Assembly (NCBI RefSeq): GCF_013032445.1
Contig: NZ_WQCA01000004.1
Coordinates: forward strand, 186,001-250,000
Direction of reading: 5' to 3'
Length of the DNA stretch: 64,000 bases
From: Ruegeria arenilitoris
GTDB taxonomy: Bacteria; Pseudomonadota; Alphaproteobacteria; Rhodobacterales; Rhodobacteraceae
Positions within the stretch are counted from its first letter, which is position 1, and every line of letters begins with the position of its first letter. The notes under the pieces are model-generated. The model made no database searches, had not been told where the DNA came from, and saw only the letters and a list, made by a program, of their open reading frames with translations. This document shows, piece by piece, positions 38,037 to 62,743 of this stretch. A program made the translations under genes and the position numbers.

Positions 38037-38118
38037 TGCGGGTGGAGGGACTTGAACCCCCACGCCTTGCGGCGCCAGAACCTAAATCTGGTGCGTCTAC
38101 CAATTTCGCCACACCCGC
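38037..38118 (-). tRNA. tRNA-Leu, anticodon TAG
   Basis: On the minus strand the sequence begins GCGGGTGTGGCG and ends CACCCGCA. The 7-bp acceptor stem, the D arm with AAATTGGTAGACGC, the anticodon loop TTTAGGT between CCAGA and TCTGG, a long variable arm (GCCGCAAGGC) and the GTTCAAGTC T-loop are all visible. CCA is encoded at 38036-38034. The class II arm and the TAG anticodon identify leucine. No integrase or attachment-site duplication was found beside it. Confidence 0.95.
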
Positions 38119-38837: not shown

Positions 38838-39254
38838 GTGATCAACATGACGAACTCTGCTGCTGCTGAGCAAGACGCCATTGGTCTTGCACGCGAAAGT
38901 TTTCTTGGTGAACTGAAGTCCTTAAACCGGGATCATCCAAATACTGGATTTGGCGTATCGTTGCGCACGCATTCGGGAGGGCATTATCTGCTGGCAAACT
39001 CTCGTATGCCGCTGCCGAAAACCAAATCCCAGGGTTTTCCAACCGGGCGTCGCCTGGCTCTGCTGGAAAACAGTGAACAGTTCAGCTCGATCGAAGTGCT
39101 TGCGGATTCGCAGGCTTACGAAGAAATCACACCAGGGGACGAAGCCGCTATTTTGGGTAACGCTTTGAACCTGATCGCCCGGATCGACATCCTGACCAGT
39201 TCTTCAGAGGGTCAGAATCAACCCCACATTGCTGCCACTGGAACCGGAGGCTGA
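38838..39254 (+). CDS. Unknown protein, first gene of the dynamin-like GTPase operon
   Basis: A protein of up to 138 residues, GTG start at 38838 (MINMTNSAAAEQDAIGLARE) or ATG at 38847. No signal peptide or membrane segment. The N-terminal third is helical and polar, the centre looks like alternating strands (FGVSLRTHSGGHYLLAN, RRLALLENSEQFSSIEVLAD), and a helix follows (DEAAILGNALNLIARIDIL). The stop is two bases before the ATG of the first large GTPase, so it is coupled to it. I do not recognise a family; a small adaptor or regulator of the GTPases is a guess from position. Confidence 0.7.
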   Translation: MINMTNSAAAEQDAIGLARESFLGELKSLNRDHPNTGFGVSLRTHSGGHYLLANSRMPLPKTKSQGFPTGRRLALLENSEQFSSIEVLADSQAYEEITPGDEAAILGNALNLIARIDILTSSSEGQNQPHIAATGTGG

Positions 39255-39256
39255 CC

Positions 39257-41266
39257 ATGGCCCGCAACGATCACCTTCTGTCCGTAGGGAACGAAGCCCT
39301 GACGCCAATGACGTCGGCCATGACCGCGTTGTCCACTCAGATTGACCAACTGACAGAGGTGGCAGACGCGCGGTCCTCGGCGCGGCTGGCGACACTTAGA
39401 ACGCGTATGGAAAACTTTACGGCCAGCGTGACGCTGGTCGGGCAGGTTAAGGCTGGAAAGTCTTCGATCGTGAACATTCTGGCCGGGCGCCCTGCTCTGT
39501 TGCCCTCGGATGTGAACCCGTGGACCTCGGTGGTGACGACGCTGAACATCAACACCCGTACCGAAGGCGACAAAAAAGCCAAGTTCACCTTTTTCGAACA
39601 GGAAGAGTGGGACAATCTTATGGTTGGCGGTGGCCGTCTGGGCGAACTGGCCAACCGGGCCGGTGCTGATGACGAAATGGAGGACATCCGCCGTCAGATC
39701 GGTGAAATGAAGGCCAAGTCCGAAGCACGTCTGGGCCAGCATTTCGACCTGATTCTGGGACAAAGCCACCAGTATGATTATTTCGACGACGAATTGATCC
39801 AGCGCTATGTCTGTCTTGGCGATGAAGACGATCCGGATATCAACCCCAAGACCGGACGCTTCGCCGACGTCACCAAGTCGGCGGAGCTGTTCATGGACAT
39901 TCCGCAATACCCGATCTCGCTGAAGCTCTGCGACACGCCCGGTGTGAACGATACCTTCATGGTGCGCGAGCAGATCACCCTGCGCAGTCTGCGTGGGTCC
40001 GAGGTCTGCGTTGTGGTATTGGCGGCCAGCCAGGCGCTGACCACAATGGACATGGCACTGATGCGGATCATTGCGCAGTTCGAAAACCGCCAGATCATTC
40101 TGTTCGTGAACCGGATCGACGAATTGTCCGATCCGGTCAATCAGGTGCCTGAGATTCGCGATCGGATTCAGGACACGCTGAAACAGAACAACATTGACAC
40201 CAATACCAGCGTTGTCTTCGGCAGCGCCCTCTGGGCCGAGGCAGCCCTGACCGGGAATCCCGAAATCCTGTCCGAGGAATCGCGCGAGGCCCTGAACACC
40301 TTCTATCTGGCCGCCGGGTTTGGCGATCAGGCCCCGTCACTCGATAAAATCTGGGCGCTTTCGGGCTTGCCTGACTTGCTTCTGGCGATGAATGAACGCA
40401 TCGCCGAGGGGGCCGGCACCCGGTTGTTGGACAGGGTACGCCACCGGGCACGCAACATCGCAAGTCAAATTCGTGCAACCGCAGTAGCCAAGAACCTGTC
40501 TGACGGTCAGGGCGTCGTGCGAGATCTGGACGGTGCGTCACCGGAAGAAGCAATCGCCAAGGTTATCGAGGAGTATGAGAAGAAGGCCGCTGATTTGACG
40601 ACCTCTTTGCGGAACAAAGTGCTGGAGCGGTTGAATTCGGCGGAGTCAAATTTTGTTAAACGCGCAACAGACTCCTTGATTTCTCATCTTGAGCAGCACG
40701 GCGAGCAAGGCACATGGCAGTACGACCCTGCGGGCCTGCGGACCCTGCAAAAGGCGGCCTATTTCAGCTTTGCCCGCGCGATGCGCAAAGACGCCGGAGC
40801 GCTTTACAACTCCGCTGCGGCAGACGTTCAGGCGTTGTATCAAAAGCTGCTGGGCAACCATTTGGGCGAGTTCAGCATCGAAGCCCCCATTGTGCCTCGT
40901 GTGCCGCCGCCACTGGGTATCGGCCGCACCATCGCACTGGATTTGCAAAGTACGTGGTGGCGCCGGTGGTGGCAACGCCGAAAAGGGTTCGAGGCTTATG
41001 CCGCTGACTACACCCGCCTGATTGCGTCCGAGGCGAACTCGATCACAAAAGACCTGGAGGAAAACCAGGTCGCAGCGGTCCTAGAAAACGTTCGGGCTGG
41101 TTTGTCGGACTTCCTGCGCGAGCAGAAAGAAACTCTGCTGAACATTTCAGCTTCTGCCGACCAGAATCCAAACCAGGCGGCCCTGACGGCAGGTATGACC
41201 CCCAAGAAATCGCGCGACGACATCCTGGGTGACATCCTGAAAGATCTTAGTAACGAGGCAGCATAA
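39257..41266 (+). CDS. Dynamin-like large GTPase A (first pair)
   Basis: A 669-residue dynamin-superfamily GTPase. G1 GQVKAGKSS at 62-70, G2 Thr in VNPWTSVVTT (T90), G3 DTPG at 226-229 and G4 NRID at 285-288. An insertion of about 100 residues between G2 and G3 is shared with GTPase C. The C-terminal half (about 390-669) is largely helical, as in bacterial dynamin-like proteins. It contains an aromatic/basic patch, STWWRRWWQRRKGF (about 565-578), that could act as a membrane-binding paddle (inference). It is about as long as known bacterial DLPs. The GTPase B gene starts eight bases downstream. Probable role: GTP-driven membrane binding or remodelling. Confidence 0.9.
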   Translation: MARNDHLLSVGNEALTPMTSAMTALSTQIDQLTEVADARSSARLATLRTRMENFTASVTLVGQVKAGKSSIVNILAGRPALLPSDVNPWTSVVTTLNINTRTEGDKKAKFTFFEQEEWDNLMVGGGRLGELANRAGADDEMEDIRRQIGEMKAKSEARLGQHFDLILGQSHQYDYFDDELIQRYVCLGDEDDPDINPKTGRFADVTKSAELFMDIPQYPISLKLCDTPGVNDTFMVREQITLRSLRGSEVCVVVLAASQALTTMDMALMRIIAQFENRQIILFVNRIDELSDPVNQVPEIRDRIQDTLKQNNIDTNTSVVFGSALWAEAALTGNPEILSEESREALNTFYLAAGFGDQAPSLDKIWALSGLPDLLLAMNERIAEGAGTRLLDRVRHRARNIASQIRATAVAKNLSDGQGVVRDLDGASPEEAIAKVIEEYEKKAADLTTSLRNKVLERLNSAESNFVKRATDSLISHLEQHGEQGTWQYDPAGLRTLQKAAYFSFARAMRKDAGALYNSAAADVQALYQKLLGNHLGEFSIEAPIVPRVPPPLGIGRTIALDLQSTWWRRWWQRRKGFEAYAADYTRLIASEANSITKDLEENQVAAVLENVRAGLSDFLREQKETLLNISASADQNPNQAALTAGMTPKKSRDDILGDILKDLSNEAA

Positions 41267-41274
41267 GTAGCGAT

Positions 41275-43005
41275 ATGGCAAAAGATTCACAAACCCGCTT
41301 CGTCTCTCCTAAGGCATGGGAACGCATTGAAAAGTGGTCCCGGCGCAAACCGATCTTTGCGTTGATGGGAGAGTTCAGTGCCGGGAAATCGACGCTGATG
41401 AACTTTTTGCTTCGCTCGCAAGCGTTGCCGACACAGGTCACCGCCACGCAACTGCCGCCGGTCTGGTTCAGTTGGGGTAAAAAATCTGCCTATGTGCAAA
41501 GACCGGACGGAACCCGCGAGAATATCACGCTGGATCAGCTGGAATCCGTTGGCGTCAATGACGCCCAGTTTGTTCGTATCTTTCTTGAGGCCGACATTCT
41601 GGAAGCGGTGGACCTGATCGACACCCCCGGCATCTCAGACCCGAAGATATCAAGCGACGTCTGGCGTCGTGCAGTCGGGCAGGCCAACGGAGTTTTGTGG
41701 TGTACGCACGCGACCCAGGCCTGGCGCGAAACCGAGCGTGCGACATGGGTATCTCTGCCGGAACGGCTGCAGCACAACTCTCTGCTGTTGGTCACCCGAG
41801 CCGACGTGCTGGGTCCCAAAGACCGTCAAAAGGTTCTGCGGCGGGTCAACCGCGAAGCGGGCCATCTGTTCAACCGATCGATTCTGTTTTCAGCCCGTGA
41901 TGCAATCACTGCGCGCGACAAGAGCGGAGATGCCGAGCTTTGGGCCCGCAGTGGCGGCGGTAAGATGGTCGATAGCTTCTTGCAGATCACCGAACAGATC
42001 ATGGACAACCGCGCCGACATACTCACGCGTTATCAAATCGACAACGGTATGTCCGATGCCCCGCGCGTTCAGCCCGTCCGTCCTAAACGAAAGGATGAAC
42101 AGGCAAACGAACCAGCCCCGCTGAAACTGGTGAACCCTGTTGCCGAAACCGCCAAGGATGATGAAGTCGTCACAAGCTTTCCTGTCCGTCCTGCCCGTGT
42201 AGAGCGTCGCACCGAAGATCCTGTCCGCGAAGAGCGTATTGACGCGGCGGAGGCCGGGCGCCTGCGCGCTGAAATGGAAGCTGAGACGCAAGTGCCAGAG
42301 CCCCAATCGGACATTGAAGGGGACGATCTGCGCGCCTTTTTCCGGGATACGGAAAACAACAGCCTGAACTTGGCCGAATTCACGGACACAATGTCAGAGG
42401 AAGACTCGTTCGATCTGCTGGAAGAGGACGACCTCGAAGACGACGACGTCAACATCCTGGCTGATTCCGAACCAGTTGAGGCTTCGGAAAAGCCTGACAC
42501 TGCATCTTCGGATCCTTTTATGGAGTCGTTGGAAGATAAGTTGGCCGACGCGCCGGAACAGGCACAGGCATCAGTCGACGAGCCAGAAGAACAGCCGACC
42601 GAAGTATCGGTGTCGTCAATTGCCGCTTTGTTGGCAGAACAGCCAAATGGCTCAGATGAGGAATACGAACCTGAGCCGGAATCCAGCGGCCTTGTGAACA
42701 TGCAGGTTGTCCCGTTGTCAAACGGAGCTCCTGCAGACGAGCCAGCCCCAGTAAAAGACACAAGTGAAGAACTGGTGTTGGATGTTTCAGAGGGCACTCC
42801 GCTTAGCGCAGCAACAATGTGGCGGGACGTTACCGCAGATGAGAACTTGCCAGACGATGTCGAAGGCATGAAGAAAGTGTTCAGAGCGTTCCTTGAGGAA
42901 TTCGACCAGATCGCAGCCGAGCATTTCGCGCGCTATGCTAAGACCCCCGGCCGCCCAATCCCCAACACCGCAGAAAACGGTGGCGCGGAGTTCCGCGTAT
43001 TATGA
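41275..43005 (+). CDS. P-loop GTPase B with a long acidic tail (first pair)
   Basis: A 576-residue protein with an N-terminal dynamin-like GTPase domain of about 250 residues: G1 GEFSAGKST at 32-40, Thr-rich switch I (LPTQVTATQLPP), G3 DTPG at 116-119 and G4 TRAD at 174-177. Residues about 255-520 are strikingly acidic and low in complexity (for example DLLEEDDLEDDDVNILADSE), probably disordered. A short helical C-terminus follows (GMKKVFRAFLEEFDQIAAEHF). It shares WCTxxTxAWRETER and NSLLxVTxAD with GTPase D and so is its paralogue. No membrane segment is present. It is probably the regulatory partner of GTPase A. Confidence 0.87.
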   Translation: MAKDSQTRFVSPKAWERIEKWSRRKPIFALMGEFSAGKSTLMNFLLRSQALPTQVTATQLPPVWFSWGKKSAYVQRPDGTRENITLDQLESVGVNDAQFVRIFLEADILEAVDLIDTPGISDPKISSDVWRRAVGQANGVLWCTHATQAWRETERATWVSLPERLQHNSLLLVTRADVLGPKDRQKVLRRVNREAGHLFNRSILFSARDAITARDKSGDAELWARSGGGKMVDSFLQITEQIMDNRADILTRYQIDNGMSDAPRVQPVRPKRKDEQANEPAPLKLVNPVAETAKDDEVVTSFPVRPARVERRTEDPVREERIDAAEAGRLRAEMEAETQVPEPQSDIEGDDLRAFFRDTENNSLNLAEFTDTMSEEDSFDLLEEDDLEDDDVNILADSEPVEASEKPDTASSDPFMESLEDKLADAPEQAQASVDEPEEQPTEVSVSSIAALLAEQPNGSDEEYEPEPESSGLVNMQVVPLSNGAPADEPAPVKDTSEELVLDVSEGTPLSAATMWRDVTADENLPDDVEGMKKVFRAFLEEFDQIAAEHFARYAKTPGRPIPNTAENGGAEFRVL

Positions 43006-43027
43006 CCAAAACCTCAGGTAGCAAACG

Positions 43028-43429
43028 ATGACGATCGAAGCCGCACTGAACGCCGCAATGGAAACCATACCCGACTGTATTGCAGCCGGGTATGTCGATA
43101 TGGAAACAGGGATGTTGCTGGGGACCAACACCCTGGATCCTGACGCTGCGGACGTGCTGGACAGCCTGGCCCTGGCCGTGGCTAACCTATTTCAAGGTCG
43201 CGGGGTCAAAGCCTTTGAAGAATTGCTTCAAATGGCCGGTGCCCAAGAGAGCGACAATCCGGGATTTGGGGAAATCGCGGTGTTTTCGAATGACCGGTTG
43301 AATATCTTTCTGCGGACCCGGGAATATCCCGATCATGTGGTCTGCTACATCTGTCGCAGCAGCGCCAATGTCGGGTTGGCGCTGACTAAATCACATCTTA
43401 GCCTGGGGCCGGTCGCGGCCGCAGTATAA
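43028..43429 (+). CDS. Roadblock/LC7-like small protein
   Basis: A 133-residue protein that resembles the roadblock/LC7 (MglB-like) fold. An N-terminal helix is followed by a strand pair with a GYVDMETGMLLGT turn, a central helix (DVLDSLALAVANLFQGRG), then strands IAVFSNDRLNIFLRT and HVVCYICRSSANVGLAL. Roadblock proteins often regulate small GTPases as GAPs or scaffolds, which fits a gene set with four GTPases. It is 22 bases after GTPase B. The fold call rests on pattern and length only. Confidence 0.6.
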   Translation: MTIEAALNAAMETIPDCIAAGYVDMETGMLLGTNTLDPDAADVLDSLALAVANLFQGRGVKAFEELLQMAGAQESDNPGFGEIAVFSNDRLNIFLRTREYPDHVVCYICRSSANVGLALTKSHLSLGPVAAAV

Positions 43430-43453
43430 ATGGGGACCAGAGGGGGTCACGGC

Positions 43454-44323
43454 ATGGTGGATACGAACATACTCGAGATGCTCGACGACATCGGGCGCTC
43501 GGCTGTGGCGCGCCTGAACCCGGCGGTAACGATCCCTGGGGAAACTGCCCGACTTCGGCGCGAAAAGGTGTTGAATACCATTCGTGGCACTATTCTGCCG
43601 CGCCGGTTGGAGTTTACCGCCGCCAATGGTGATTGCCTTGCCATCGAGGTCAACAGTTCCCGCATCACGGATGTGTTCAGGGTTCAATCCGGCATTGCTC
43701 CGGATTTCGAAACCGAACCTCGCGAGGAACTGGCTGACAAACTGGCAAAACTGGTGACCGACATTGCCGCCGCCCCCGGTCCATTGGAGTTGATTTCGCT
43801 ACAACCCGACACCGCGCTTGAGGCCGACGATGTGGGCATTACCTTCAGCGAGATCGAAAGCGCATGCCAAAAGATCGAACTGCCTGTGGACCCGGTCATT
43901 TCCATTGTCCCGGATGAGCCCAAAGAAACCGCGCCCGCTGACGAAGCAGTAACGGAAGAACCCGCCGACTCGCTGGCGCAGCGGTTTTATGACGGTTCGG
44001 AAAGGTTTGCCCAGGGCCGGGTTCTGGTCCAAGCCACAGACGGGGCATCGTTGCGTATGGATGGTACCTGTGATGAGGGGGGGCCGCTGCACCCGAGTTC
44101 CGATCTGCTGGCCCGGTTCGCCAGTGACCTTGCGGGATGGGACAACGACACGGCCAACGTGATGGACCATCCGCAGTTGATTGTCATGCGCCCCTCGGGT
44201 GGTAAGGGCGCCGGGCTGGCCATTCTGAATGACGGTGAGAGTTTTTCAATCGCCGTACACGAGACTCGCAAGCTGGGTGCTGTTGTCAATTTGTGGGCCA
44301 CTTTGAAAAGGCCAGACGGATGA
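43454..44323 (+). CDS. Unknown protein between the two GTPase pairs
   Basis: About 289 residues from the ATG at 43454 (MVDTNILEMLDDIGRSAVAR), preceded by AGAGGGGG; the frame is open to 43430. An N-terminal domain (about 1-140) is alpha/beta (RRLEFTAANGDCLAIEVNSS), followed by an acidic linker rich in Pro, Glu and Ala (about 145-185). A C-terminal domain (about 190-289) ends in strands (AGLAILNDGESFSIAVHETR, LGAVVNLWATL). No catalytic motif or membrane segment is seen and no family is recognised. Its place between the roadblock-like gene and GTPase C suggests an adaptor role. Confidence 0.7.
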   Translation: MVDTNILEMLDDIGRSAVARLNPAVTIPGETARLRREKVLNTIRGTILPRRLEFTAANGDCLAIEVNSSRITDVFRVQSGIAPDFETEPREELADKLAKLVTDIAAAPGPLELISLQPDTALEADDVGITFSEIESACQKIELPVDPVISIVPDEPKETAPADEAVTEEPADSLAQRFYDGSERFAQGRVLVQATDGASLRMDGTCDEGGPLHPSSDLLARFASDLAGWDNDTANVMDHPQLIVMRPSGGKGAGLAILNDGESFSIAVHETRKLGAVVNLWATLKRPDG

Positions 44324-44390
44324 TTACTCCCCATTCGTTCAATTTTTCGATGAATTCGATCTGTGATTATGAGTTACCAGGGTAAGTTTT

Positions 44391-46433
44391 ATGAGTGAAA
44401 TCAATCGTCGCGAGTTAATCCGCATTGCCGAAGACATGAATGGGTCGTCTAATGACGAGACCCGCCAGTTCATCTCGCGCATTGTCGGAGATCTGACAAA
44501 TCTGAAACCTTCGATCGCCTTTGTCGGGCAGATCAAGGCGGGTAAGTCCCGTCTGATCAACGGTTTCACCGGTCAGGCAGAATATCTGCCGTCAGATGTG
44601 AACCCCTGGACGACAGTGATCACCGACATGCATTTCGGCCACCCCTCTGGGCGGACCTCGGGGGCCGAGTTCCATTTCTTCGACAACCGCCAGTGGCAAG
44701 CGCTGATCGCCGAAGGTGAAGAACTGCGCAACATGTTTCCCGATGACGAGGACAGCTATAAACGCGAGATGATCGAAGAGCAGGTCGAAGCGATGAAGAC
44801 CCGCGCCAAACTGCGTTTGGGCGAAAGCTACAAACACCTGCTGGGGCAACATCACGACCTTGAAAAACTAACCTCGGACGACCTGGCGCGCTATGTCTGC
44901 GCCGGAGATGATCCAACCGAAGAAGGCGAACACGATCCGGGTTCGGATCGCGGCCTTTACAGCGACATCACCCGCAAGGCCGAGGTCTTTTTCGACATCG
45001 GTCATTTCCCGTTTCCGCTGACGGTGACAGACACGCCGGGCGTGAATGACCCGCTTTTGATCCGCGAAGAAATCTCGCGTCAGTATCTTAAGGAATCCGA
45101 TTTCTTTGTGGTTGTCCTATCCGCGCATCAGGCGTTGTCGCGGGCAGACCTGAAACTGTTCCGCCTGATGCAGGCGTTGGAATTGGGTCAGATCGTGGTG
45201 TTCATTAACCGAGTCGATGAACTGGGTGGTGGCGCAGAAGATGCTGGCAAAGTCCGGGCCGATGTTATGGAGGGTCTTGAGCAGGCTCTTGGGAACTCAA
45301 ACATCGATGTTCTGATGGGTAGCGCACAATGGGCGCACTACGCATTGACGGGTGATGAAACCGGCATCAACCACGATGAAATCCTTGCTTGGCTGCGCGC
45401 ACATCCAGAGCAGATGAAGCAATACCTGGACGGCGTGGAAGAGATCAAACAGGGTCCGGGACCGATCAGCCGCGAAGGTGTGCTGCGGTTTGCCGCAATG
45501 ATCGCCTCGGGTCTGCCAGACCTGCGTCGGCACGTCACAAATGCCCTGACCCAAGGACCTCGCAACGAGCATCTTCGGATGGCCTGGCAACATCTTAACA
45601 CTTTCGCGCAAGGCGACGTTGAGCGCAGCAGAGCACATCTGCGCGCTATCGAGGAGGAAAGCACCCCGACCGCTGAAAACGGGAGCGAAAACAACAAAAC
45701 CCTGGCGGATTTACGCGCGCTTGTAACCGAGAAGACAGCTGGAATCGTCAACGACATGGATGATGTTCTGGCCAATCTGCGCGGAGTCATGGACGACACT
45801 GTTGCCGAGGCCGTGTCGGTAGTGGTGCGAGGTCCGAACGGAGATTCACCGTTGCTGGCAAAGGGCGGCGATACAGAGTTGAATTTCACGCCGCTGCGGG
45901 ACCGCATGCGCGAGCTTGTGCAGGGTGCGACTCAGGTCGTGCGCCAACGCATGCTGAGCGAACTGTATTCAATCGACATGCAAAGCAACGCGGCCCTGCG
46001 CGCCCTGCCCGGTTGGCAAGATCCGACCGATAACCGGATGAACACCAGCGCTGTTCGGTGGTTCCGCCCGGATACAACGGCGCTGACCCGTGGCATCACT
46101 GTTGAATTGCGGGTCAGCTGGCTTTCGCGGCTCATTTCGCGCAAGAGCGTTGTCTCTCGGGCCGAACGCATGATTGTACAAGAATTCGAAATGATCGGCG
46201 ACGATCTGGTAGACACCGCACGCGGTGATTTGCTTGAGCGTTTAAACACGGTTCTGGATCATTATCTGGCGCTGTTGGCCGGTCATCTTGAACTTCGCAC
46301 CGGAAACGGTGAAACCAATGAGCGGGCAAAGGCACAGGCGGCCTTTGACAACGCGCAACGCATCGCCGAAGAATTGGGTGCCGTCTTTGGCTCGGATGAC
46401 ATAGACAAAAGATTAGCAGAGGCTGCGGAATGA
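44391..46433 (+). CDS. Dynamin-like large GTPase C (second pair)
   Basis: A 680-residue paralogue of GTPase A. G1 GQIKAGKSR at 46-54, G2 Thr in VNPWTTVITD, G3 DTPG at 214-217, G4 NRVD at 273-276. The insertion between G2 and G3 aligns with that of A (RLGESYKHLLGQHHDLEKL, DDLARYVCAGDD). The C-terminal helical half contains the hydrophobic/basic segment VSWLSRLISRK (about 575-585) where A has its Trp-rich patch, again a likely membrane-contact loop. GAGG-type ribosome-binding site is weak. The stop overlaps the start of GTPase D by four bases. Confidence 0.9.
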   Translation: MSEINRRELIRIAEDMNGSSNDETRQFISRIVGDLTNLKPSIAFVGQIKAGKSRLINGFTGQAEYLPSDVNPWTTVITDMHFGHPSGRTSGAEFHFFDNRQWQALIAEGEELRNMFPDDEDSYKREMIEEQVEAMKTRAKLRLGESYKHLLGQHHDLEKLTSDDLARYVCAGDDPTEEGEHDPGSDRGLYSDITRKAEVFFDIGHFPFPLTVTDTPGVNDPLLIREEISRQYLKESDFFVVVLSAHQALSRADLKLFRLMQALELGQIVVFINRVDELGGGAEDAGKVRADVMEGLEQALGNSNIDVLMGSAQWAHYALTGDETGINHDEILAWLRAHPEQMKQYLDGVEEIKQGPGPISREGVLRFAAMIASGLPDLRRHVTNALTQGPRNEHLRMAWQHLNTFAQGDVERSRAHLRAIEEESTPTAENGSENNKTLADLRALVTEKTAGIVNDMDDVLANLRGVMDDTVAEAVSVVVRGPNGDSPLLAKGGDTELNFTPLRDRMRELVQGATQVVRQRMLSELYSIDMQSNAALRALPGWQDPTDNRMNTSAVRWFRPDTTALTRGITVELRVSWLSRLISRKSVVSRAERMIVQEFEMIGDDLVDTARGDLLERLNTVLDHYLALLAGHLELRTGNGETNERAKAQAAFDNAQRIAEELGAVFGSDDIDKRLAEAAE

Positions 46434-47716
46434 TCGAATTTCCCGGAACCGAACAGGAAGTAAGGCAACTAGAACGCTTTCTGACCGCGACCGAAAACCT
46501 GCCGAACGACACGATGCTGGATGAGATGCGCGAACGCGCCCTTGCCCATGCCGGGCGGCTGTCCAACGCGGTCAATATCGGTTTTGCCGGGGAGTTTGGG
46601 GCGGGTAAATCCAGCCTCGCCAACATGCTGGCCGGGGCGGATATTCTACCTACGGGACCACAGCACCTGAAACTGCCTTTGGTGATCGTGGCCTATTCCG
46701 ACACGCCGGAAACCACCGTTGGCTGGTGGGACAAAGAACCCAAAGTCTATTCCGGTATAGCGTTGGAAAAAGCCGCCGCAGATGAACCTGACTTTATTTC
46801 CGTCGGGCTCAACACTCCTGCGCTGCAGGAGATTTCCTTGTTCGATCTCCCCGGAACCGGGGCGTTGGACGACACCTATAAAGAAACGCTGGATCTGCTG
46901 AAATTTGTGGACTGCGCGATATGGTGCACCAACGGCACCAACGCCTGGCGCGAGACCGAGCGTCATCTCTGGACGCGGGTGCCGCAAGAGCTGCGTGTCA
47001 ACAGTCTGCTGGCTGTGACCCACGCCGATCTGCCGCCGGTCCGAGACGCGCTTGACCGTGTTCTGTCACGCCTCAATAAGGAAAAGGGTGATCTGTTCCG
47101 CTCGGTCGTGCCAATCGGCACCCCGGTTGCCGTGCGCGCTATGGCGCAAGAGCCCGAGCCGGATTTCGCTCTCTGGGAGACATGCGGAGGTCAGGATCTA
47201 GCTGAACAGGTCCTGCAGATTGCTTCCGACCGCCGGGTGGCTGACTTGGAGGCTGCGCGGGCCGATTTGAAAGAGGATTTCCTGCCGTTTTTGGAAACCA
47301 TTGCCGGCCCTGAACCCGAGGCAACGCAATCGGACTCCATGTCCATGCATGCTACTTTGGAATCCGCGTTGCCGCCGTTGGAAAACCCTATCCTCGAGGA
47401 CTGGCTGGCCGCGATTGCCAGCATCTACGAAGATCTTCGTGAATCATCCGATATCGAACCTTCGGCATTCCTGCATGCCTGTCAGGAAATCGTCGAAGAT
47501 TTTGCCGAACGTCTGGAACAAGGGGACGAGATTGACCCCAAGGCCGACTGGATACCCGGTGAATTCGAAAAGGCGACGGATCTGTTGTTGTTGCTTCAAT
47601 TCGAATCTGGTGAAGCGCCACTGAAGGACGCAGTTAGCATACTTGCGCAGCTCAGCGACAATCTCGCATGGGCAGGCAGCAGTGTGGATTCGGTTCAGCC
47701 CAAGACCGGCACGTAG
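46430..47716 (+). CDS. P-loop GTPase D (second pair)
   Basis: A 428-residue paralogue of GTPase B. G1 GEFGAGKSS at 54-62, G3 DLPG at 139-142, G4 THAD at 197-200, with WCTNGTNAWRETER and NSLLAVTHAD matching B. A clear switch I Thr is not obvious (LPTGPQHLKLP), which may mean slow or absent GTP hydrolysis. Unlike B it lacks the long acidic tail; the C-terminal 170 residues are helical and acidic. The ATG overlaps the GTPase C stop, so C and D are made together. It is the last gene of the operon and a terminator lies about 100 bases downstream. Confidence 0.87.
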   Translation: MIEFPGTEQEVRQLERFLTATENLPNDTMLDEMRERALAHAGRLSNAVNIGFAGEFGAGKSSLANMLAGADILPTGPQHLKLPLVIVAYSDTPETTVGWWDKEPKVYSGIALEKAAADEPDFISVGLNTPALQEISLFDLPGTGALDDTYKETLDLLKFVDCAIWCTNGTNAWRETERHLWTRVPQELRVNSLLAVTHADLPPVRDALDRVLSRLNKEKGDLFRSVVPIGTPVAVRAMAQEPEPDFALWETCGGQDLAEQVLQIASDRRVADLEAARADLKEDFLPFLETIAGPEPEATQSDSMSMHATLESALPPLENPILEDWLAAIASIYEDLRESSDIEPSAFLHACQEIVEDFAERLEQGDEIDPKADWIPGEFEKATDLLLLLQFESGEAPLKDAVSILAQLSDNLAWAGSSVDSVQPKTGT

Positions 47717-47819: not shown

Positions 47820-47846
47820 GGCCTGCATTTTGTGCAGGCCTTTTTT
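47820..47846 (+). terminator. Terminator of the GTPase operon
   Basis: GGCCTGCA and TGCAGGCC form a perfect 8-bp stem with loop TTTTG, followed by six T. It separates the GTPase operon from the kinase operon. The following about 200 bases to 48054 hold no gene and should contain the kinase promoter. Confidence 0.9.
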
Positions 47847-48054: not shown

Positions 48055-50178
48055 ATGAGCCACAACCAGGCGGTCGGTGCATCGCACGACGAACCGAAAA
48101 TTGAAGGACTTCAACCCGGCGCCAAACTGTTGCACGGGCAGTATGAAATCCTGCGATACCTTAGCAATGGCGGCTTTGGGATCACTTATCTTGCACGCAA
48201 CAGTCTGGACCGTGAGGTCGTAATCAAAGAGTGCTATCCGGGTGCGTTGTGCCAACGGAACGGTGACTTGGTCGAGGCCACCAATCCGGATCATAAAGAC
48301 GATCTGCGCGCGATCATCGAGCTGTTCATTCAAGAGGCGCGCAACCACGCACGTCTGGTTCATCCCAATATCGTCGACGTTCATCAGGTGTTCGAGGACA
48401 ACGACACAGCCTATATCGCGATGGACTTCATCAAGGGCTGCGACCTGCTGGACTATGTCGAAAACGCCGACAACAAGGCCGGCCCTGACTTCATCGTTCA
48501 GGTCACCGAAAAGATGCTGTCGGCCGTGTCGTTCATCCACCAGAGCGGCATGCTGCACCGGGACATCTCGCCCGACAATATCCTGATCGATGAAAACGGC
48601 GAGCCGATTCTGATCGACTTCGGTGCCGCGCGCGAGCAGGCCGCGAACCAGTCCGCTGCGTTGTTGACCCTGCGGGTGATCAAGGACGGGTACTCGCCCC
48701 ATGAGTTCTACGTTCGCGGGGCCGATCAAGGACCCAGCAGCGACCTCTATGTGCTGGCCGCCACGTTGTACCACGCCATCAGCGGCGAGCGCCCGATTGA
48801 CGGCCAGACCCGCCTGAGCGCCTTCAACAACAGTCAGGCAGACCCCTACACCCCGCTGGCCGGTCGGTTCAATGGTTATCCCGAAGGGTTCCTTGAGGCG
48901 ATCGACAAGGCGATGGAGGTGCACGTTACCGACCGTCTGCAAAGCGCGCTGGACTGGCTGCGCATGTTCCGCGGTCCGGACGTCATGTTCGATACTTTTG
49001 CCTACCGTCCTGTCTCGGTCATCGTGGGCATGGACCGCAAAGATGAAGAGGCCGAAAAGGCCCGGATCAAGGCCGAAAGCGAGAATGCCGAAGCTGTGGT
49101 TACCGCCCTTCTGGCAGGTAACGCAGATCTTACACTTGGGAATGAAGACAAAGACGAAGATGAACTTGCCAAGTTCACGTCCAAAGAAGACAAAGACACC
49201 GCAGTGGACACTGTAGTCAAGAGCGGTTCCGGTGGCAGTGGCAAGCTGCTTGCCGGTGCAGCTGTCGTCGCGGTTGGTCTTGCTGCGGGCGGTTATTTCC
49301 TGATGGCTGGTGACAAGTCCGAACCCGCTCAGGACGTTGCAGTTGCATCCGCACCTGCGGCGCAAGAAACGGAAGATCAGGTGGCAGAAAAGCCCGAACC
49401 TGTCGAGCAGGTCGCCACCGCAAATATCACGCCGGACGAAGCTGATCCGGCACCCGAAAAGGCAGAACCAGCTCAGGCGCCTGTCGAGCAGACACAGGCC
49501 CAGACGACTGAAACAGAAGAGGCCCAAGCCCAAACAGTCGAAACCACAACTGCCCCCGTTGAAACCGCGATCCCGGCAGAGACACAGGTATCCTTTGCGC
49601 ACTGGGATGTCGAAATTCCTTTCCAGACATCCAGACGGCGTGCGTCGACGGGCAGCATCATCGCAGTTACCGGTGTTGATCCGTCGCAAGATATGTCGGT
49701 GATCGGTGACTGGGTCAAACGCGGCGCCGCGATTTACACTCTGAATGGTGAACCCGTCCGCGAGAATGCAAGTTTTGCAGCACAGGTGCTGGACGAACTC
49801 GCAATTGATCCTGACGGATACATCCGCGTAACGGCCCGTTATCGCCCGCTTGGCAAAACTCTTGCCCAGAACGGCCTGCTAGCCCTGCCCGCCATCCGCA
49901 TGGTCGGATTGGAAAACGGCTATGGCTTCACTATCCGCAACGACGATGGGCAAAACTGGGAAACAGTCGTCACCACCGTCCCTGCCGAAGCAGCCGGAGA
50001 CCTGCAGCGCGGTGATGTTTTGATCTCTGAAGCACAGACCGGCGCGGCCATTGATGGTCAGGAAAGCCTGGACGCCATGCTGGACGCTTTGGTCGCAGAC
50101 AAACAAGCACAGGCTCAACTGACTGTAATGCGCAACGGCGCTGAAACCGATGCCGTGATGCAGTTGGCGCAGGAGTAA
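48055..50178 (+). CDS. Membrane-anchored Ser/Thr protein kinase with periplasmic PDZ-like domains
   Basis: A 707-residue Hanks-type kinase. The cytoplasmic kinase domain spans about 28-310: Gly-rich loop SNGGFGITY (37-45), Lys58 in VVIKECYPG, catalytic HRD at 168-170, DFG at 188-190. An acidic linker (about 325-395) leads to one transmembrane helix (about 398-418, LLAGAAVVAVGLAAGGYFLMA). The outside part has a Glu/Pro/Thr-rich stretch (about 420-520) and two PDZ-like modules (about 525-610 and 620-705; RGAAIYTLNGEPV, QRGDVLISEAQTG). It heads an operon with an FHA protein and PP2C phosphatase. Probably it senses an envelope signal and phosphorylates cytoplasmic targets, perhaps including the neighbouring GTPases (inference). 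Confidence 0.92.
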   Translation: MSHNQAVGASHDEPKIEGLQPGAKLLHGQYEILRYLSNGGFGITYLARNSLDREVVIKECYPGALCQRNGDLVEATNPDHKDDLRAIIELFIQEARNHARLVHPNIVDVHQVFEDNDTAYIAMDFIKGCDLLDYVENADNKAGPDFIVQVTEKMLSAVSFIHQSGMLHRDISPDNILIDENGEPILIDFGAAREQAANQSAALLTLRVIKDGYSPHEFYVRGADQGPSSDLYVLAATLYHAISGERPIDGQTRLSAFNNSQADPYTPLAGRFNGYPEGFLEAIDKAMEVHVTDRLQSALDWLRMFRGPDVMFDTFAYRPVSVIVGMDRKDEEAEKARIKAESENAEAVVTALLAGNADLTLGNEDKDEDELAKFTSKEDKDTAVDTVVKSGSGGSGKLLAGAAVVAVGLAAGGYFLMAGDKSEPAQDVAVASAPAAQETEDQVAEKPEPVEQVATANITPDEADPAPEKAEPAQAPVEQTQAQTTETEEAQAQTVETTTAPVETAIPAETQVSFAHWDVEIPFQTSRRRASTGSIIAVTGVDPSQDMSVIGDWVKRGAAIYTLNGEPVRENASFAAQVLDELAIDPDGYIRVTARYRPLGKTLAQNGLLALPAIRMVGLENGYGFTIRNDDGQNWETVVTTVPAEAAGDLQRGDVLISEAQTGAAIDGQESLDAMLDALVADKQAQAQLTVMRNGAETDAVMQLAQE

Positions 50179-50381
50179 TCTGATCGGTTCATATGTGATC
50201 TGAAGCTAGCGAATGCTGAGGGTGGTGCCCGGAAATCCGCCACTCTGACGAGGGTCGACTCGTCGCGAAAAAAGGATGGTTTGATTTCCACAACAAAAGT
50301 GCCGTTGTGCCGATGCGCGCAGAGGCGAGTAGCAGCCCCACGGAACTCAGTGCCGTGAAAAGAAGCAAAGGTGTCGACACC

Positions 50382-51392
50382 ATGTTCAAATACAAAAGCC
50401 CTCTCAGCCGGCTTCTCGAAGGTGCCGGCAAAGCCAAAGAACCCGAAGCCGAAACCAAAGTGGAAGAAGCCGCCCCCGAGGCCGAAAATCCCCAGCCGAT
50501 CGCGGACTTCAACGCGCTGCGTGCCGCTCTGGGCGGTGGCAACATGTCCGCGACATCGGAAAGCTACGAAGACTCGGATGATCTGCTCCCTGAAGAAGAG
50601 ATGCCTGAGTTTTCGGAAGACGAGACCGACACTGCGGAAGACGACGTTGTGATAACAGAGGTCGTCGCCGAAACTCAGGATAACATTTTCGAGGCTCCGG
50701 AAACTCAACCCGAACCGGAAGAGCCGGTCGTGACCCTACGCGTGGCCACTGCAGAAGATTCCGTAGCAGAACAACCGGTTCAGGATGAACAGGTTGTCGA
50801 AGTGATCGTTGAAACGGTTGAACCCGCTCAACCCGAGCAGGTGGCAGAGGTCGAACCCGAAGCGAAGGCAGAGCCCGTAGCGGAAGTTCAGGCCGAACCG
50901 CAACAACCGGTGGCGGCTGCGGCCCCAGCGGAAGACCGTCGTGGTCGCGTCAAAACCACTTTCCTTGGCTTCGAACGCGCCGACACTCACGTTCAGGATC
51001 TTATCGAAACCTCTGAACCCGTTGCCAAAACGGAAACTGCGCAAGAAACCTTTCCTGTTGGTTGGTTGGTTGTAACCGCCGGACCGGGACGTGGATCGTG
51101 CATCACGCTGACCGAAGGCCTGATGCAGATTGGGCGCAATGATGATCAGGCCATTCAACTGGACTTTGGTGACACAGGCATTTCGCGCAGCAGCCATGCA
51201 GTGATTGCCTATGATCCCGAGGATCGCAAATGCTACCTGGGTCACGGCGGCAAGGCCAATCTGGTGCGCCTGAACGGCAAACCAGTGCTCAGCACCGTGG
51301 CTCTTTCAAGCGGCGACCTGATCCGCATCAGCGAAACCTCAATCCGTTTTGCTGCTTTCTGCGATGACGGCTTTGACTGGCGGGATGCCTGA
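50382..51392 (+). CDS. FHA-domain protein
   Basis: About 336 residues if started at the ATG at 50382 (MFKYKSPLSRLLEGAGKAKE); the frame is open from 50307. Residues about 15-215 are very acidic and rich in Glu, Pro, Val and Ala, probably disordered and a good kinase substrate. The C-terminal FHA domain (about 235-325) shows MQIGRNDDQAIQL, SRSSHAVIAY and VRLNGKPV, the Gly-Arg, Ser-x-x-His and Asn-Gly positions that bind phosphothreonine. It lies between the kinase and the phosphatase, so it probably reads the kinase's phosphorylation state. Its stop is three bases from the phosphatase start. Confidence 0.9.
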   Translation: MFKYKSPLSRLLEGAGKAKEPEAETKVEEAAPEAENPQPIADFNALRAALGGGNMSATSESYEDSDDLLPEEEMPEFSEDETDTAEDDVVITEVVAETQDNIFEAPETQPEPEEPVVTLRVATAEDSVAEQPVQDEQVVEVIVETVEPAQPEQVAEVEPEAKAEPVAEVQAEPQQPVAAAAPAEDRRGRVKTTFLGFERADTHVQDLIETSEPVAKTETAQETFPVGWLVVTAGPGRGSCITLTEGLMQIGRNDDQAIQLDFGDTGISRSSHAVIAYDPEDRKCYLGHGGKANLVRLNGKPVLSTVALSSGDLIRISETSIRFAAFCDDGFDWRDA

Positions 51393-51395
51393 TAG

Positions 51396-52181
51396 ATGCT
51401 GGCGCAACCGGCATATGATATTGCGCTGATCCTGGATCAGGGTCAGCGGGAGACACAAGAAGACGCGATTGCCGCGCGCATGTTCGATGCTGCCAATGCA
51501 GGCTACGTCGTAATTGCGGACGGCATGGGCGGGCACGCGGCCGGCGAGGTTGCTTCGGAATACGTGGTTTCATCCTGGCGCGAGGCTTTGGACACAGAGC
51601 TTGAGGATGCCCCCTTGTCCGAAGCCGCAGCCATTGACGCGTTGCCATTGGCGGCCCTGCAGGCCAACGCTGCCATTGCACTCCACTGCGACGGCAAAGG
51701 CGACAATTTCAACATGGGATCGACCCTGTTGGGGCTCCTTTTGCTGGACAAGCGCGCATTCTGGATTTCGATCGGCGACAGCCCGTTGTACCTGTTCCGC
51801 GACGGGGTACTGCAGCAGATCAACGAAGACCACTCCATGGCTCCGGTGATCGACGCGCAGGTTGCCGAGGGCAAACTGACAGAAGTTGAAGCACAGGCCC
51901 ATCCTGATCGTAACCAGCTGACATCGGTCATCATGGGGGGCCCGATCCCCAAGGTCGATTGCCCCGAAAAACCGTTGGAACTGACGGCTTCGGACTTGCT
52001 GATCCTGGGCAGCGACGGGCTGCAATATCTCAGCAATACGGAAATCGAGACCATTTTACAAAGCAACAAGCACGCTTTGGCGCAGGACATCGCCGACGCG
52101 CTGTGGAAGGCCCTTCGGGCCAAAAACGACCCGGATCAGGACAATGCCTCGATTGGCGTTGTGAAACTTACAAAAAACTAA
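51396..52181 (+). CDS. PP2C-family protein phosphatase
   Basis: A 261-residue Ser/Thr phosphatase of the PPM/PP2C family. Metal-binding motifs are intact: QRETQEDA, VVIADGMGGHAAGEVAS, GSTLLGLLL, FWISIGDSPLYLF, LLILGSDGLQ and DQDNASIGVV. It is cytoplasmic. With the kinase and the FHA protein it makes a complete write-read-erase set for protein phosphorylation. In type VI secretion loci the same trio (PpkA, Fha, PppA) occurs, but no secretion genes are present here. Confidence 0.94.
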   Translation: MLAQPAYDIALILDQGQRETQEDAIAARMFDAANAGYVVIADGMGGHAAGEVASEYVVSSWREALDTELEDAPLSEAAAIDALPLAALQANAAIALHCDGKGDNFNMGSTLLGLLLLDKRAFWISIGDSPLYLFRDGVLQQINEDHSMAPVIDAQVAEGKLTEVEAQAHPDRNQLTSVIMGGPIPKVDCPEKPLELTASDLLILGSDGLQYLSNTEIETILQSNKHALAQDIADALWKALRAKNDPDQDNASIGVVKLTKN

Positions 52182-52203
52182 CGAAGGCAAAGCTACAGGA
52201 CTC

Positions 52204-53466
52204 ATGAAACCCCATCTGTTCATATCCAGCCTGGCATTGGCTGCCGCAACCGGAGCCGCTTCGGCCCAAGAAGCGTGCTCCACCTACGAAATCCAGCGCG
52301 GCGACAGCCTGCGTGAGTTGGCAATCGAGGTGTACTCGACCGAAGACTTTCGCATCATCTTTGACGCCAACCGCGATGTGATTGGCAACAATCCGAACAT
52401 CATCCGCGTTGGCGACGTCCTGACCATGCCCTGCCTTGAGGATATCGGACGCGCACCTGCTGCTCCGCAAACCGAAGCCGAAGCGATGGCTGCGGAAATG
52501 GCTGCAGAATTGGTACAGGCCGCGGAAAAGCGCGCTGAAAAAGCCATTGCAGAAGCCGAAGCCCGGGTCGCCGAAGCTGAAGCCGAAGCCAAAAAGGCCA
52601 GTGAAGACGCAGTGATCGCTGCCAAGGCCGAGGCCAAGAAAGAGATCGAAGCCGCCCGCGCCGAAGGTGCGGCCCTGATCCGCAACGCCGATGAAGGCGA
52701 GCGTCCGGAAATCCGGGACCGTCAGTTGCTGCTGATCACCGGTGGCGACTATGCGCCGTTCACTGATGAGGCGCTGCCCAATCGCGGGCTTTACACCAAT
52801 CTGGTGGAGACCGCGATGCTGCGGGCTGCACCTGAACAAGGCTATAAAATTCAGTTCGTCAACGACTGGTCGTCGCATCTGGACCTGTTGATGCCAACGC
52901 TGGCATTTGACGCCACGTTCCCATGGTCGCGCCCGAATTGCGAAGAGACTGCGGCACTATCCGAGAAAGACCGCAAGCGCTGCGAAACCTACAACTTCTC
53001 GAACCCGTTCTACGAGGTTGTGGATACGTTCTTTGCCCGCGATGGCTCGGGCTATGAGCAGACTCTGACCTATGCCGACTTTGCAGGAACCACGATCTGC
53101 CGTCCCGAAGGTTGGTCGCTGTCGCATATGGATGCCGTGGGCCTTTATGAACCGGCAATCACTCTGATGCGCCCGGTTTCCCCAGATGAGTGCTTTCACG
53201 CGGTCATGGAAGGTACAGCAGATATCGTCGCGATCGAGGCCCATCTGGCCGTCGAGGCAATCGCACGTTTGGGCTATGAACATCGCATTATTGAAAACCC
53301 CAACCTAGCGGCAATCAAGTCGCTTAACGTCATGACCCACAAAGATAATCCGGATGGAGAAGCGATCCTTGAGACGTTGAACCAGGGTCTGGCGATCATG
53401 CAGCAATCCGGAGAATGGCGAGACATCGTCTCGACCGCCCTACGCTATCAAATGGAAAACGGCTGA
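52204..53466 (+). CDS. Secreted LysM / coiled-coil / solute-binding-like fusion protein 1
   Basis: A 420-residue exported protein. Signal peptide 1-22 (MKPHLFISSLALAAATGAASA). One LysM domain (about 23-76: CSTYEIQRGDSLRELAIEVY, NPNIIRVGDVLTMPC) that should bind peptidoglycan. Then an Ala/Glu/Lys-rich coiled coil (about 85-155) acts as a spacer. From about 170 a type 2 periplasmic binding fold follows (LLLITGGDYAPFTDEALPNR, INDW-like FVNDWSSHLDLL, GTTICRPEGWSLSHMD, IVAIEAHLAVEAIARLG). It begins 22 bases after the phosphatase. The design suggests a wall-tethered ligand sensor for the kinase (inference), or a cell-wall-anchored solute-binding protein without a transporter. Confidence 0.88.
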   Translation: MKPHLFISSLALAAATGAASAQEACSTYEIQRGDSLRELAIEVYSTEDFRIIFDANRDVIGNNPNIIRVGDVLTMPCLEDIGRAPAAPQTEAEAMAAEMAAELVQAAEKRAEKAIAEAEARVAEAEAEAKKASEDAVIAAKAEAKKEIEAARAEGAALIRNADEGERPEIRDRQLLLITGGDYAPFTDEALPNRGLYTNLVETAMLRAAPEQGYKIQFVNDWSSHLDLLMPTLAFDATFPWSRPNCEETAALSEKDRKRCETYNFSNPFYEVVDTFFARDGSGYEQTLTYADFAGTTICRPEGWSLSHMDAVGLYEPAITLMRPVSPDECFHAVMEGTADIVAIEAHLAVEAIARLGYEHRIIENPNLAAIKSLNVMTHKDNPDGEAILETLNQGLAIMQQSGEWRDIVSTALRYQMENG

Positions 53467-53510
53467 AACAACAACAAGCCGCCTCAAATACTATCTGGAG
53501 AAACTAACTA

Positions 53511-54620: not shown

Positions 54621-54660
54621 AACCTCAATTCCAAATTCCAACTTATGGGAGGAATAACAA

Positions 54661-55767: not shown

Positions 55768-55790
55768 TCCCTCGGTTCACCTGACAACTA

Positions 55791-55822
55791 AGGGGCTGGT
55801 CTCAGGACCGGCCTCTTTTTTG
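55791..55822 (+). terminator. Terminator of the kinase/LysM operon
   Basis: AGGGGCTGGTC and GACCGGCCTCT pair (with two G-U pairs) around TCAG and are followed by a run of T. It lies about 25 bases after the last LysM gene. Confidence 0.85.
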
Positions 55823-59510: not shown

Positions 59511-59519
59511 GTTCTGTCC

Positions 59520-62637: not shown

Positions 62638-62708
62638 CGGATCTATCCTTTGAAAATGCAGGGTCAGGACGGGCGGAATGGGCCCTTTCAAATCGCCATA
62701 ACGGATAT

Positions 62709-62723
62709 TGGATACAAAATCCA
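62709..62723. promoter_or_regulatory. Candidate operator TGGAT-N5-ATCCA upstream of the hydroxyproline cluster
   Basis: A 5-bp inverted repeat with spacer ACAAA lies 72 bases upstream of the deaminase start. Read on the minus strand it contains TTGTATCCAA, the same ten bases as the core of the GntR operator at 2788. This suggests a GntR/FCD-type regulator, encoded outside this segment, acts here. Confidence 0.45.
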
Positions 62724-62743
62724 GAACAAATGAAACCAATAAA

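Follow-up and report, generated by a model that had tools for sequence, protein, structure and literature searches.

Roadblock regulators are best known from cell polarity and from eukaryotic nutrient sensing, and to our knowledge the trigger that tells bacterial dynamins when to act is an open question. Proteins of both kinds appear to be encoded side by side in the locus described here, which lies in a stretch of 64,000 nucleotides from Ruegeria arenilitoris (hereafter the window; contig NZ_WQCA01000004.1 of assembly GCF_013032445.1, positions 186,001 to 250,000), itself part of a 379,541-base contig in a 5.24 Mb genome. The closest described systems are known separately. According to the accessible text of PMC6104087, most bacterial dynamin-like proteins (DLPs) are encoded as operon pairs, and EHD-type bacterial relatives are other dynamin-family proteins (PMC7016017, accessible part). 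GTPase-roadblock systems are represented by MglA/MglB and by the Asgard GTPase-roadblock architectures presented in the available text of PMC10933270. Finally, solute-binding protein (SBP), kinase and FHA protein are joined in the GlnH/GlnX/PknG/OdhI relay, where control of the kinase is ascribed to the periplasmic binding protein GlnH (PMC9769921, accessible part) and PknG phosphorylates OdhI at Thr14 (PMC2784874, accessible part). Among the open-access matches listed, as far as their accessible text goes, no paper was found on a roadblock regulator of a bacterial dynamin or on a locus of this kind.

The locus consists of two tight blocks on the forward strand, R1-A-B-R2-X-C-D (38838-47716) and K-FHA-PP2C-S1-S2-S3 (48055-55767), which are separated by 338 bp; spacing within the first block is 2, 8, 22, 0, 67, and -4 bp. 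The original prediction had singled out the first block as an operon with two duplicated pairs of dynamin-like GTPases and a roadblock-like protein, and had suggested a heteromeric membrane machine; it contained neither R1 and X nor the kinase, FHA, PP2C, and SBP genes at 48055-55767. In the reading we favor, the locus would encode a dynamin for membrane remodeling, a GTPase/roadblock switch that gates it, and an SBP-kinase-FHA relay that controls the switch; we judge the case for this reading to be evenly balanced.

Large and Small GTPases of the Dynamin Family

All four GTPases pass the cut-off of the Dynamin_N model PF00350 (A, E 2.6e-11; B, 1.3e-9; C, 4.9e-13; D, 4.3e-10). The whole 5.2 Mb genome yields seven PF00350 matches, and the three outside the locus have P-loop regions that read like those of ordinary ribosome/tRNA-type GTPases. 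The open reading frames confirm the predicted order and lengths, all on the plus strand: A (39257-41266, 669 aa) is followed by B (41275-43005, 576 aa), and C (44391-46433, 680 aa) by D (46430-47716, 428 aa). A and C are paralogs with 38% identity over 292 aa (E 2e-64), and both the VNPWT switch and the long insertion between G2 and G3, already noted before, fall within the aligned part; B and D share 32% identity over 218 aa (E 3e-27), including the likewise noted WCTxxTxAWRETER and NSLLxVTxAD motifs. Alignments of A with B (E 0.02) and of C with D (E 7e-4) are limited to the P-loop region, and a similarity between A and B was rejected for this reason.

By its predicted structure, A is a dynamin-like protein composed of a G domain and a helical stalk, as in BDLP and IniA. 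AlphaFold2 (AF2) models were made for A and R2, and that of A (48 sequences; predicted local distance difference test, pLDDT, 82.8) shows a G domain with four long stalk helices. Structural alignment of this model spans 498 residues with IniA (Z 18.9, root-mean-square deviation, rmsd, 4.8), 540 with BDLP (Z 16.1, rmsd 5.6), and 399 with SynDLP (Z 22.3, rmsd 5.9), and it takes in the greater part of both IniA and BDLP. At the sequence level, a profile of 16 A and C sequences retrieves the Campylobacter jejuni DLP pair first (E 9e-15) and Nostoc BDLP next (E 2e-11) from the PDB. Scored by the patterns GxxxxGK[ST], switch-I Thr, DxxG, and [NT]xxD, the motifs G1, G2, and G3 are present in 110/110 A-type proteins, including three of a variant termed A', and G4 in 105/110. 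Between two long stalk helices (residues 492-536 and 578-635), A carries the sequence WWRRWW (residues 567-572; 40955-40972), a candidate membrane-binding tip judging from its position. A WWxxWW-type tip is found in 99/110 A-type but 0/48 C-type proteins, which have a different, less aromatic sequence there. C retains its motifs nearly throughout (G1 47/48, G2 47/48, G3 48/48, G4 46/48, with the C-like protein of locus L053 included), and its length and its alignment to A suggest that it has room for a dynamin stalk. Locus L053, from a genome of the same family, Rhodobacteraceae, holds three adjacent genes that match the large GTPases weakly (L053:5723-11695, minus strand; 16-49 bits) and may be another dynamin-like set.

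In the small GTPase B, G1, switch-I Thr, DxPG, and G4 are intact in 104/104 sequences. Many B orthologs measure only 301-342 aa and therefore have no space for a stalk, and the extra length of the window's B is an acidic linker (27% D/E) followed by a short C-terminal segment, so that B is best described, by sequence and length, as a putative stalkless G domain with an acidic tail. D proteins from loci that also encode C keep G1, DxPG, and G4 in 46/46 cases and the switch-I Thr in 1/46, as in the window, where D lacks it; these 46 are mostly from Ruegeria and are not independent. Where C is absent, the switch-I Thr is found in 0/9 D proteins and DxxG in 3/9, so that most of these orthologs have lost G motifs beyond the switch-I Thr. 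In E, a small GTPase that groups with D in the tree, the counts are 1/30 and 0/30, respectively, and DxxG is missing from all three B' proteins, the small partners of A' (0/3). Parts of the small-partner family thus appear to have turned into pseudo-GTPases, whereas B stays intact. The prediction of four dynamins is not supported as worded, as B is too short for a stalk and D lacks the switch-I Thr. A rule by which D would be intact wherever C is present was dropped because independent events are few, with most C-less D and all E forming one clade (92). D of locus L111 retains DAPG although C is absent from its locus, and in L096 the gene caller reports no D, yet a frame matching D exists. The decaying D/E lineage offers a naturally graded set of proteins that leads from a GTPase to a pseudo-GTPase subunit.

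Gene order was compared across named loci, of which the best 80 of 509 were taken (a selection biased to Ruegeria), and across the A loci of a genome sample; six locus pairs with identical A (240 residues compared) are counted twice unless stated otherwise. B adjoins A in 80/80 named loci and in 24/24 A loci of the genome sample, where 4 of the 104 A-adjacent B (L041, L043, L117, L124), two of them in named loci, were placed by six-frame search only. Accordingly, the named loci contain A in 80/80 and B in 80/80 (78 by the gene caller); C is found in 41/80, and D or E in 66/80. The small gene lies directly 3' of the large one in A-B, C-D, and A'-B' alike. In the unrooted tree of large GTPases (44 rows), A (34 rows) is supported at 100/100, A' (3 rows) at 100/99, and C (7 rows) weakly at 80/56; the program flags a risk of long-branch effects for A' against A, and the weak C-like match from L053 was left out. 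The small-GTPase tree (62 rows, quick and unrooted, without L037_E and L044_E, which do not match the P-loop pattern) splits into B-type and D/E-type proteins (SH-like approximate likelihood ratio test 100), and the partners of A' fall on the B side. Together with the homology of A with C and of B with D, trees and pairing fit the proposed duplication of one large-plus-small unit. Of the paired order, A-B holds in all A loci, whereas C-D is not universal, and since C is absent from many homologous loci, the original prediction stands only in part on this point.

Where C is missing, D directly follows X in nine loci (L098, L100, L101, L103, L105, L106, L107, L108, L114), and the earliest start available to D falls anywhere from 58 bp upstream to 6 bp downstream of the final codon of X; D of L108 is cut at the contig end. 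In loci with the order K-FHA-PP-E-A-B-R2-X, the D ortholog E lies upstream of A. Locus L051 (L051:1568-4900) shows C-D in a stretch without A; there, R2 and X have two further genes beside them, one for a DSP-type phosphatase and one for a 405-aa product whose weak matches are of ATPase- and phosphatase-like kind. Relatives of both genes are found near R2, X, and D in L030 and L111, divergent from A-B.

Roadblock Proteins as Candidate Partners of the Small GTPases

R2 (43028-43429, 133 aa), the protein originally described as roadblock-like, is a roadblock/LC7-fold protein as judged by its AF2 model (pLDDT 90.9), which displays the roadblock order alpha-beta2-alpha-beta3-alpha. The top Foldseek match is the Streptomyces roadblock protein 3kye (E 1.3e-7), MglB 1j3w is matched at E 2.4e-6, and MglB 6hjm superimposes over 117 residues (Z 16.0, rmsd 2.2); the fold further matches Ragulator subunits and the C-terminal domains of Rag proteins. 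R2 is followed without a gap by X (43430-44323, 297 aa), a member of a family with no recognized domain, for which no Pfam or NCBIfam model passes its cut-off. In searches of PDB sequences, the profiles of R2 and X found nothing better than E 0.1 (best for X, E 0.13). R1 (38838-39254, 138 aa), which opens the first block, likewise matches no Pfam or NCBIfam family, and profile comparison detects no mutual relation between R1, R2, and X. Their profiles are found in 49/80 (R1), 68/80 (R2), and 69/80 (X) of the named loci.

A second roadblock family, Y, includes one member matching Robl_LC7 at E 0.003, under the cut-off. The Y profile relates to that of R2 with 83% probability over 100 columns, and with 13% to the R2b version of the R2 profile. 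Y genes are located directly 3' of A-B in L115, L117 (two), L118 (two), L119, L120 (start only, at the contig end), and L124 (two), and L043 combines B-Y with a K-FHA-PP-A arrangement behind which B and R2 follow. Overall, a roadblock gene is found within 3.5 kb downstream of A in 98/109 loci (R2 in 89, Y in 9), or in 94/103 after removal of loci with identical A; among the 11 loci without one, six have less than 2.6 kb of sequence left. Furthermore, a Y-type domain forms the C-terminal part of a small GTPase in three loci, each time as a single open reading frame with an architecture like that of Rag GTPases (L048:10965-12224, L049:6885-8285, L052:10825-12243); these fused domains are 69% (L048), 70% (L049), and 32% (L052) identical to Y of L115. 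The fusions, and a gene slot filled by two families, are the best evidence for what would be a physical partnership of small GTPase and roadblock protein, and the fusion in three loci is the strongest evidence for the putative heteromer.

A roadblock partner, GTPase-roadblock fusions, and a stalkless B with an intact switch could also be features of a polarity or positional switch similar to MglA-MglB or the conservons, in which the GTPases recruit partners and the fold of A serves assembly rather than bending. Against such a switch speak the full-length BDLP/IniA-like predicted fold of A and its conserved Trp/Arg tip; compared with Pfam, moreover, A-D match Dynamin_N and general GTPase models, and no Ras- or MglA-type family exceeds the cut-off. 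We consider a polarity switch unlikely.

The Kinase-FHA-PP2C-S Block

For the gated dynamin that we favor, the second block would provide the input. K (48055-50178, 707 aa) is a Ser/Thr kinase (Pkinase, E 3.9e-29) with IKE, HRD, and DFG motifs; its kinase part is cytoplasmic, one transmembrane (TM) segment is predicted to begin at residue 398, and the periplasmic part has a PDZ match (E 0.02) that stays below the cut-off. Next comes an FHA-domain protein with an acidic N-terminal region (50307-51392; FHA, E 1.4e-7), the real start of which may lie 3' of the GTG used here, and a PP2C phosphatase (51396-52181, 261 aa; PP2C_2, E 5.3e-13; Stp1_PP2C_phos, E 6.5e-40, below its cut-off). The block ends with three tandem LysM/solute-binding-like proteins of secreted type (52204-55767): S1 (52204-53466; SBP_bac_3, E 1.1e-4, below cut-off) has a signal-like N-terminus by eye, S2 (53511-54620) a LysM match above cut-off (E 1.3e-4), and the S2-like S3 (54661-55767) one below it (E 0.015). 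S2 and S3 are 65% identical, and S1 is 29-34% identical to them, with 29% for the comparison with S2.

At least one of the K, FHA, and PP2C genes is present in 85/109 A loci, in several orders and orientations. Two main types of kinase occur, long ones with a TM segment and short ones without, and L126 encodes an intermediate form with a TM segment near its end. S genes were found in 10 loci, always with a long kinase where this is readable as a whole. In five other loci with a long kinase (L043, L128, L130, L131, L134), the available flank holds no SBP gene, and the sequences of the named Ruegeria loci stop short of the S genes and are uninformative on this point.

Upstream of its FHA domain, the FHA protein contains a KT[TR][LF][LI]GF-type motif (50952-50972). 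In its strict form, the motif is present in 71/79 FHA genes (66/74 distinct) and in none of the other frames among 11335 open reading frames; three more FHA genes have it with one letter off, and it is absent from five, namely the short calls L067, L091, and L125 as well as L128 and L134, which have an ordinary length. By analogy with OdhI, its threonine is a candidate phospho-acceptor. The window's FHA protein reaches 22.7 bits with the OdhI model, far below the cut-off of 200, and no PDB sequence matches it at E 0.001.

Terminator-like hairpins with T-runs, detected by pattern match only, are located 3' of D (47820-47840) and 3' of S3 (55790-55817). Hairpin plus T-run patterns are common, with 33 in the region against 22.4 expected from shuffles, and the stems of these two are among the longest in the region.

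Distribution and Genomic Neighborhood

A has matches in 27/100 genomes of the family at E <0.001, the window's own included, and in 25 at <1e-60; two genomes, G059 and G080, match weakly. The closest named loci are from Ruegeria, with A mostly 88-96% identical. Across the class, the A/C profile finds 2/289 genomes at 1e-20 and X also 2/289, in both cases the own genome and one of the family; across the phylum, the A/C profile finds 4/299 genomes at 1e-9 (own and three of the family), and the B/D profile 5/249 at 1e-6 (own, three of the family, and a distant one at 3.6e-9). In the genomes sampled, the module was not found outside its family. A also matches 20 plasmid records (Leisingera 12, Ruegeria 5, Rhodobacter 1, Pseudomonas 2), of which 18 span most of A; the two Pseudomonas matches cover 35% of it at 26% identity and are taken for another dynamin. 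The module is accessory, often plasmid-borne, and apparently restricted to its family. A tRNA gene (38037-38118, minus strand; Rfam) lies in a 1.4-kb stretch without a convincing gene 5' of R1, about 0.7 kb upstream of the module, and marks a possible insertion point.

Patchy occurrence in 27/100 genomes, 18/20 plasmid records with most of A, and a tRNA gene upstream would also suit a defense or envelope-stress system, that is, an accessory module which senses damage and acts on the membrane. Models for such a role are Eleos/LeoABC and DynA-type phage tolerance, and A matches the PADLOC models LeoBC (E 1.4e-10) and LeoA (E 1.9e-10). Both Leo models, however, match all four GTPases weakly, at 16-39 bits, as expected of any bacterial dynamin, and the kinase matches are of a generic kind. 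On plasmids, four annotated stretches contain, besides the module, mainly genes for metabolism, transport, proteases, or stress, none of them named as a defense system. A defense role appears improbable to us.

Type VI secretion, to which the kinase-FHA-PP2C set might have pointed, was rejected as a link, as no secretion gene was found among the neighbors scanned. This Pfam scan covered part of the neighbors in L029, L031-L034, L051, L100, and L110 and returned metabolic, cell-shape, envelope, and AAA families, or none. The gene mreB follows X at 0.14 kb in the identical loci L034 and L132, at 0.23 kb in L125, at 5.2 kb in L123, and at 7.1 kb in L122, and L034:9506-14049 additionally holds mreC and a gene of the PBP2 type. 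This adjacency concerns one group of genera and may just reflect a shared insertion site rather than a link to cell shape. Elsewhere, the genes after X vary and include penicillin-binding protein (PBP)-like/OmpA and PilJ-domain proteins (L033:9607-12717) and a MotB/OmpA-type protein (L110:15436-16293). In the window, a catabolic cluster on the minus strand (58485-62739) comprises two proline-racemase-like genes, an amino-acid oxidase-like gene, and a dihydrodipicolinate synthase (DHDPS)-like gene; with these labels given by eye, it reads like a cluster for hydroxyproline use.

A Proposed Mechanism and Its Weighing

In the membrane-remodeling dynamin that we propose, the output part would be R1-A-B-R2-X-C-D: at the inner membrane, A, and C where present, would assemble and bring about bending or bridging, A binding the membrane via its Trp/Arg-rich tip. 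B would be a stalkless GTP switch which, together with R2 and perhaps X, sets when A assembles or hydrolyzes GTP; R2 may act in a manner similar to a GTPase-activating protein, and D, the second, switch-defective copy, may serve as a regulatory subunit. In the input part, the LysM/solute-binding proteins would sample a ligand at the wall and the transmembrane kinase K would relay the signal; the FHA protein would switch partner upon phosphorylation of its Thr motif, and PP2C would reset it. The putative chain runs from ligand via S and K to the FHA protein, from there to B with R2, X, and possibly D, and finally to the assembly of A (and C); each of these steps is presumed, as is communication between the input and output parts. 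At the level of sequence or predicted fold, the homologies, the motif states, the folds of A and R2, and the A-B pairing can be regarded as established, as can the roadblock slot, the GTPase-roadblock fusions, and the recurrence of the kinase set.

Several observations weigh against this mechanism. Robl_LC7 is detected in 0/34 R2 members, at E up to 0.5, and L029, L030, L047, L057, and L111 have no downstream roadblock gene despite enough sequence; in L030 and L111, which share an identical A, R2 is on the opposite strand. Many kinases are short and have no TM segment, and no SBP gene is seen in 13 loci, 12 of them distinct, whose short kinase is readable as a whole; several of these loci have little flank. 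No kinase, FHA, or PP2C gene is seen in 24/109 A loci; several of these are short stretches, but twelve span 19-22 kb (L029, L030, L037, L047, L048, L052, L103, L110, L111, L112, L118, L119), so that the input part is either not obligatory or located elsewhere. Finally, in the window the two blocks give the impression of being transcribed separately, with 338 bp and a hairpin between them. Their arrangement differs among relatives: they diverge in Actibacterium (L098), converge in Defluviimonas (L101), lie on opposite strands in a Leisingera plasmid (L058), and have K-FHA-PP before A in many others. Because the blocks are rearranged relative to each other, we take them for two units that belong to one system.

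Taken further, the 24 loci without kinase, FHA, or PP2C gene, together with the prevalence of operon pairs among bacterial DLPs (PMC6104087, accessible text), might indicate an ordinary dynamin pair for membrane repair to which the roadblock and kinase genes are functionally unlinked neighbors. Against such chance proximity stand the roadblock gene near A-B in 98/109 loci, its fusion to a small GTPase in three, and the recurrence of the kinase-FHA-PP2C set in several arrangements, and we regard an ordinary pair as very improbable.

The heteromeric membrane machine suggested originally is plausible as a hypothesis. More tentatively, and with some doubt on our part, a dynamin under a Rag-like switch of stalkless G protein and roadblock, with a pseudo-GTPase subunit and gating by an SBP-receptor kinase-FHA relay, may constitute a new class of bacterial membrane machine; if true, roadblock-controlled, nutrient-gated membrane dynamics would have been invented independently. 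The locus offers a candidate dynamin regulator with genetic evidence, namely a fixed gene slot, two roadblock families, and fusions, along with a kinase relay that may act upstream of it, all in Ruegeria, which can be cultured; such a combination could enable a bacterium to remodel its membrane in response to a signal.

Comparison With Known Systems

With the C. jejuni DLP1/DLP2 pair (5owv/5oxf), Nostoc BDLP, mycobacterial IniA, and SynDLP, A shares the G domain and, in its predicted fold, the stalk, and C shares the G domain by homology; pairing of genes in an operon is common to both as well. Unlike in DLP pairs, the partner B appears to be stalkless, and genes for a roadblock protein, X, a kinase, an FHA protein, and PP2C accompany the pair. 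The MglA/MglB(/MglC) systems of Myxococcus and Thermus likewise co-encode a GTPase and a roadblock protein, R2 having the predicted fold of MglB, but the GTPases of the present locus belong to the dynamin family, include a stalked dynamin, and are not Ras-like. Streptomyces conservons (CvnA-D), which include the histidine kinase CvnA and the DUF742 protein CvnC, have the set of kinase, roadblock protein, and GTPase in common with this locus, and their host genus contributes the top structural match of R2, 3kye. Unlike conservons, the locus encodes a Ser/Thr kinase (Pkinase) and dynamin-type GTPases and has no DUF742 match, X and R1 matching no family above the cut-off.

In L048, L049, and L052, the roadblock domain lies C-terminal to the G domain, an order that recalls Rag/Ragulator and the Asgard Rag-like proteins. 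Unlike in Rag, the G domain of these fusions comes from another GTPase family, and the likeness is therefore probably convergent. The input part finds its closest counterpart in the actinobacterial GlnH-GlnX-PknG-OdhI/GarA system, with which it shares an SBP, a Ser/Thr kinase, and an FHA protein with a Thr motif; in OdhI, Thr14 lies before the FHA domain. In contrast to GlnX-PknG, K itself spans the membrane, and the output would be GTPases instead of 2-oxoglutarate dehydrogenase. The likeness to the OdhI relay is not evidence of such working, but it suggests how an input to the dynamin module could work.

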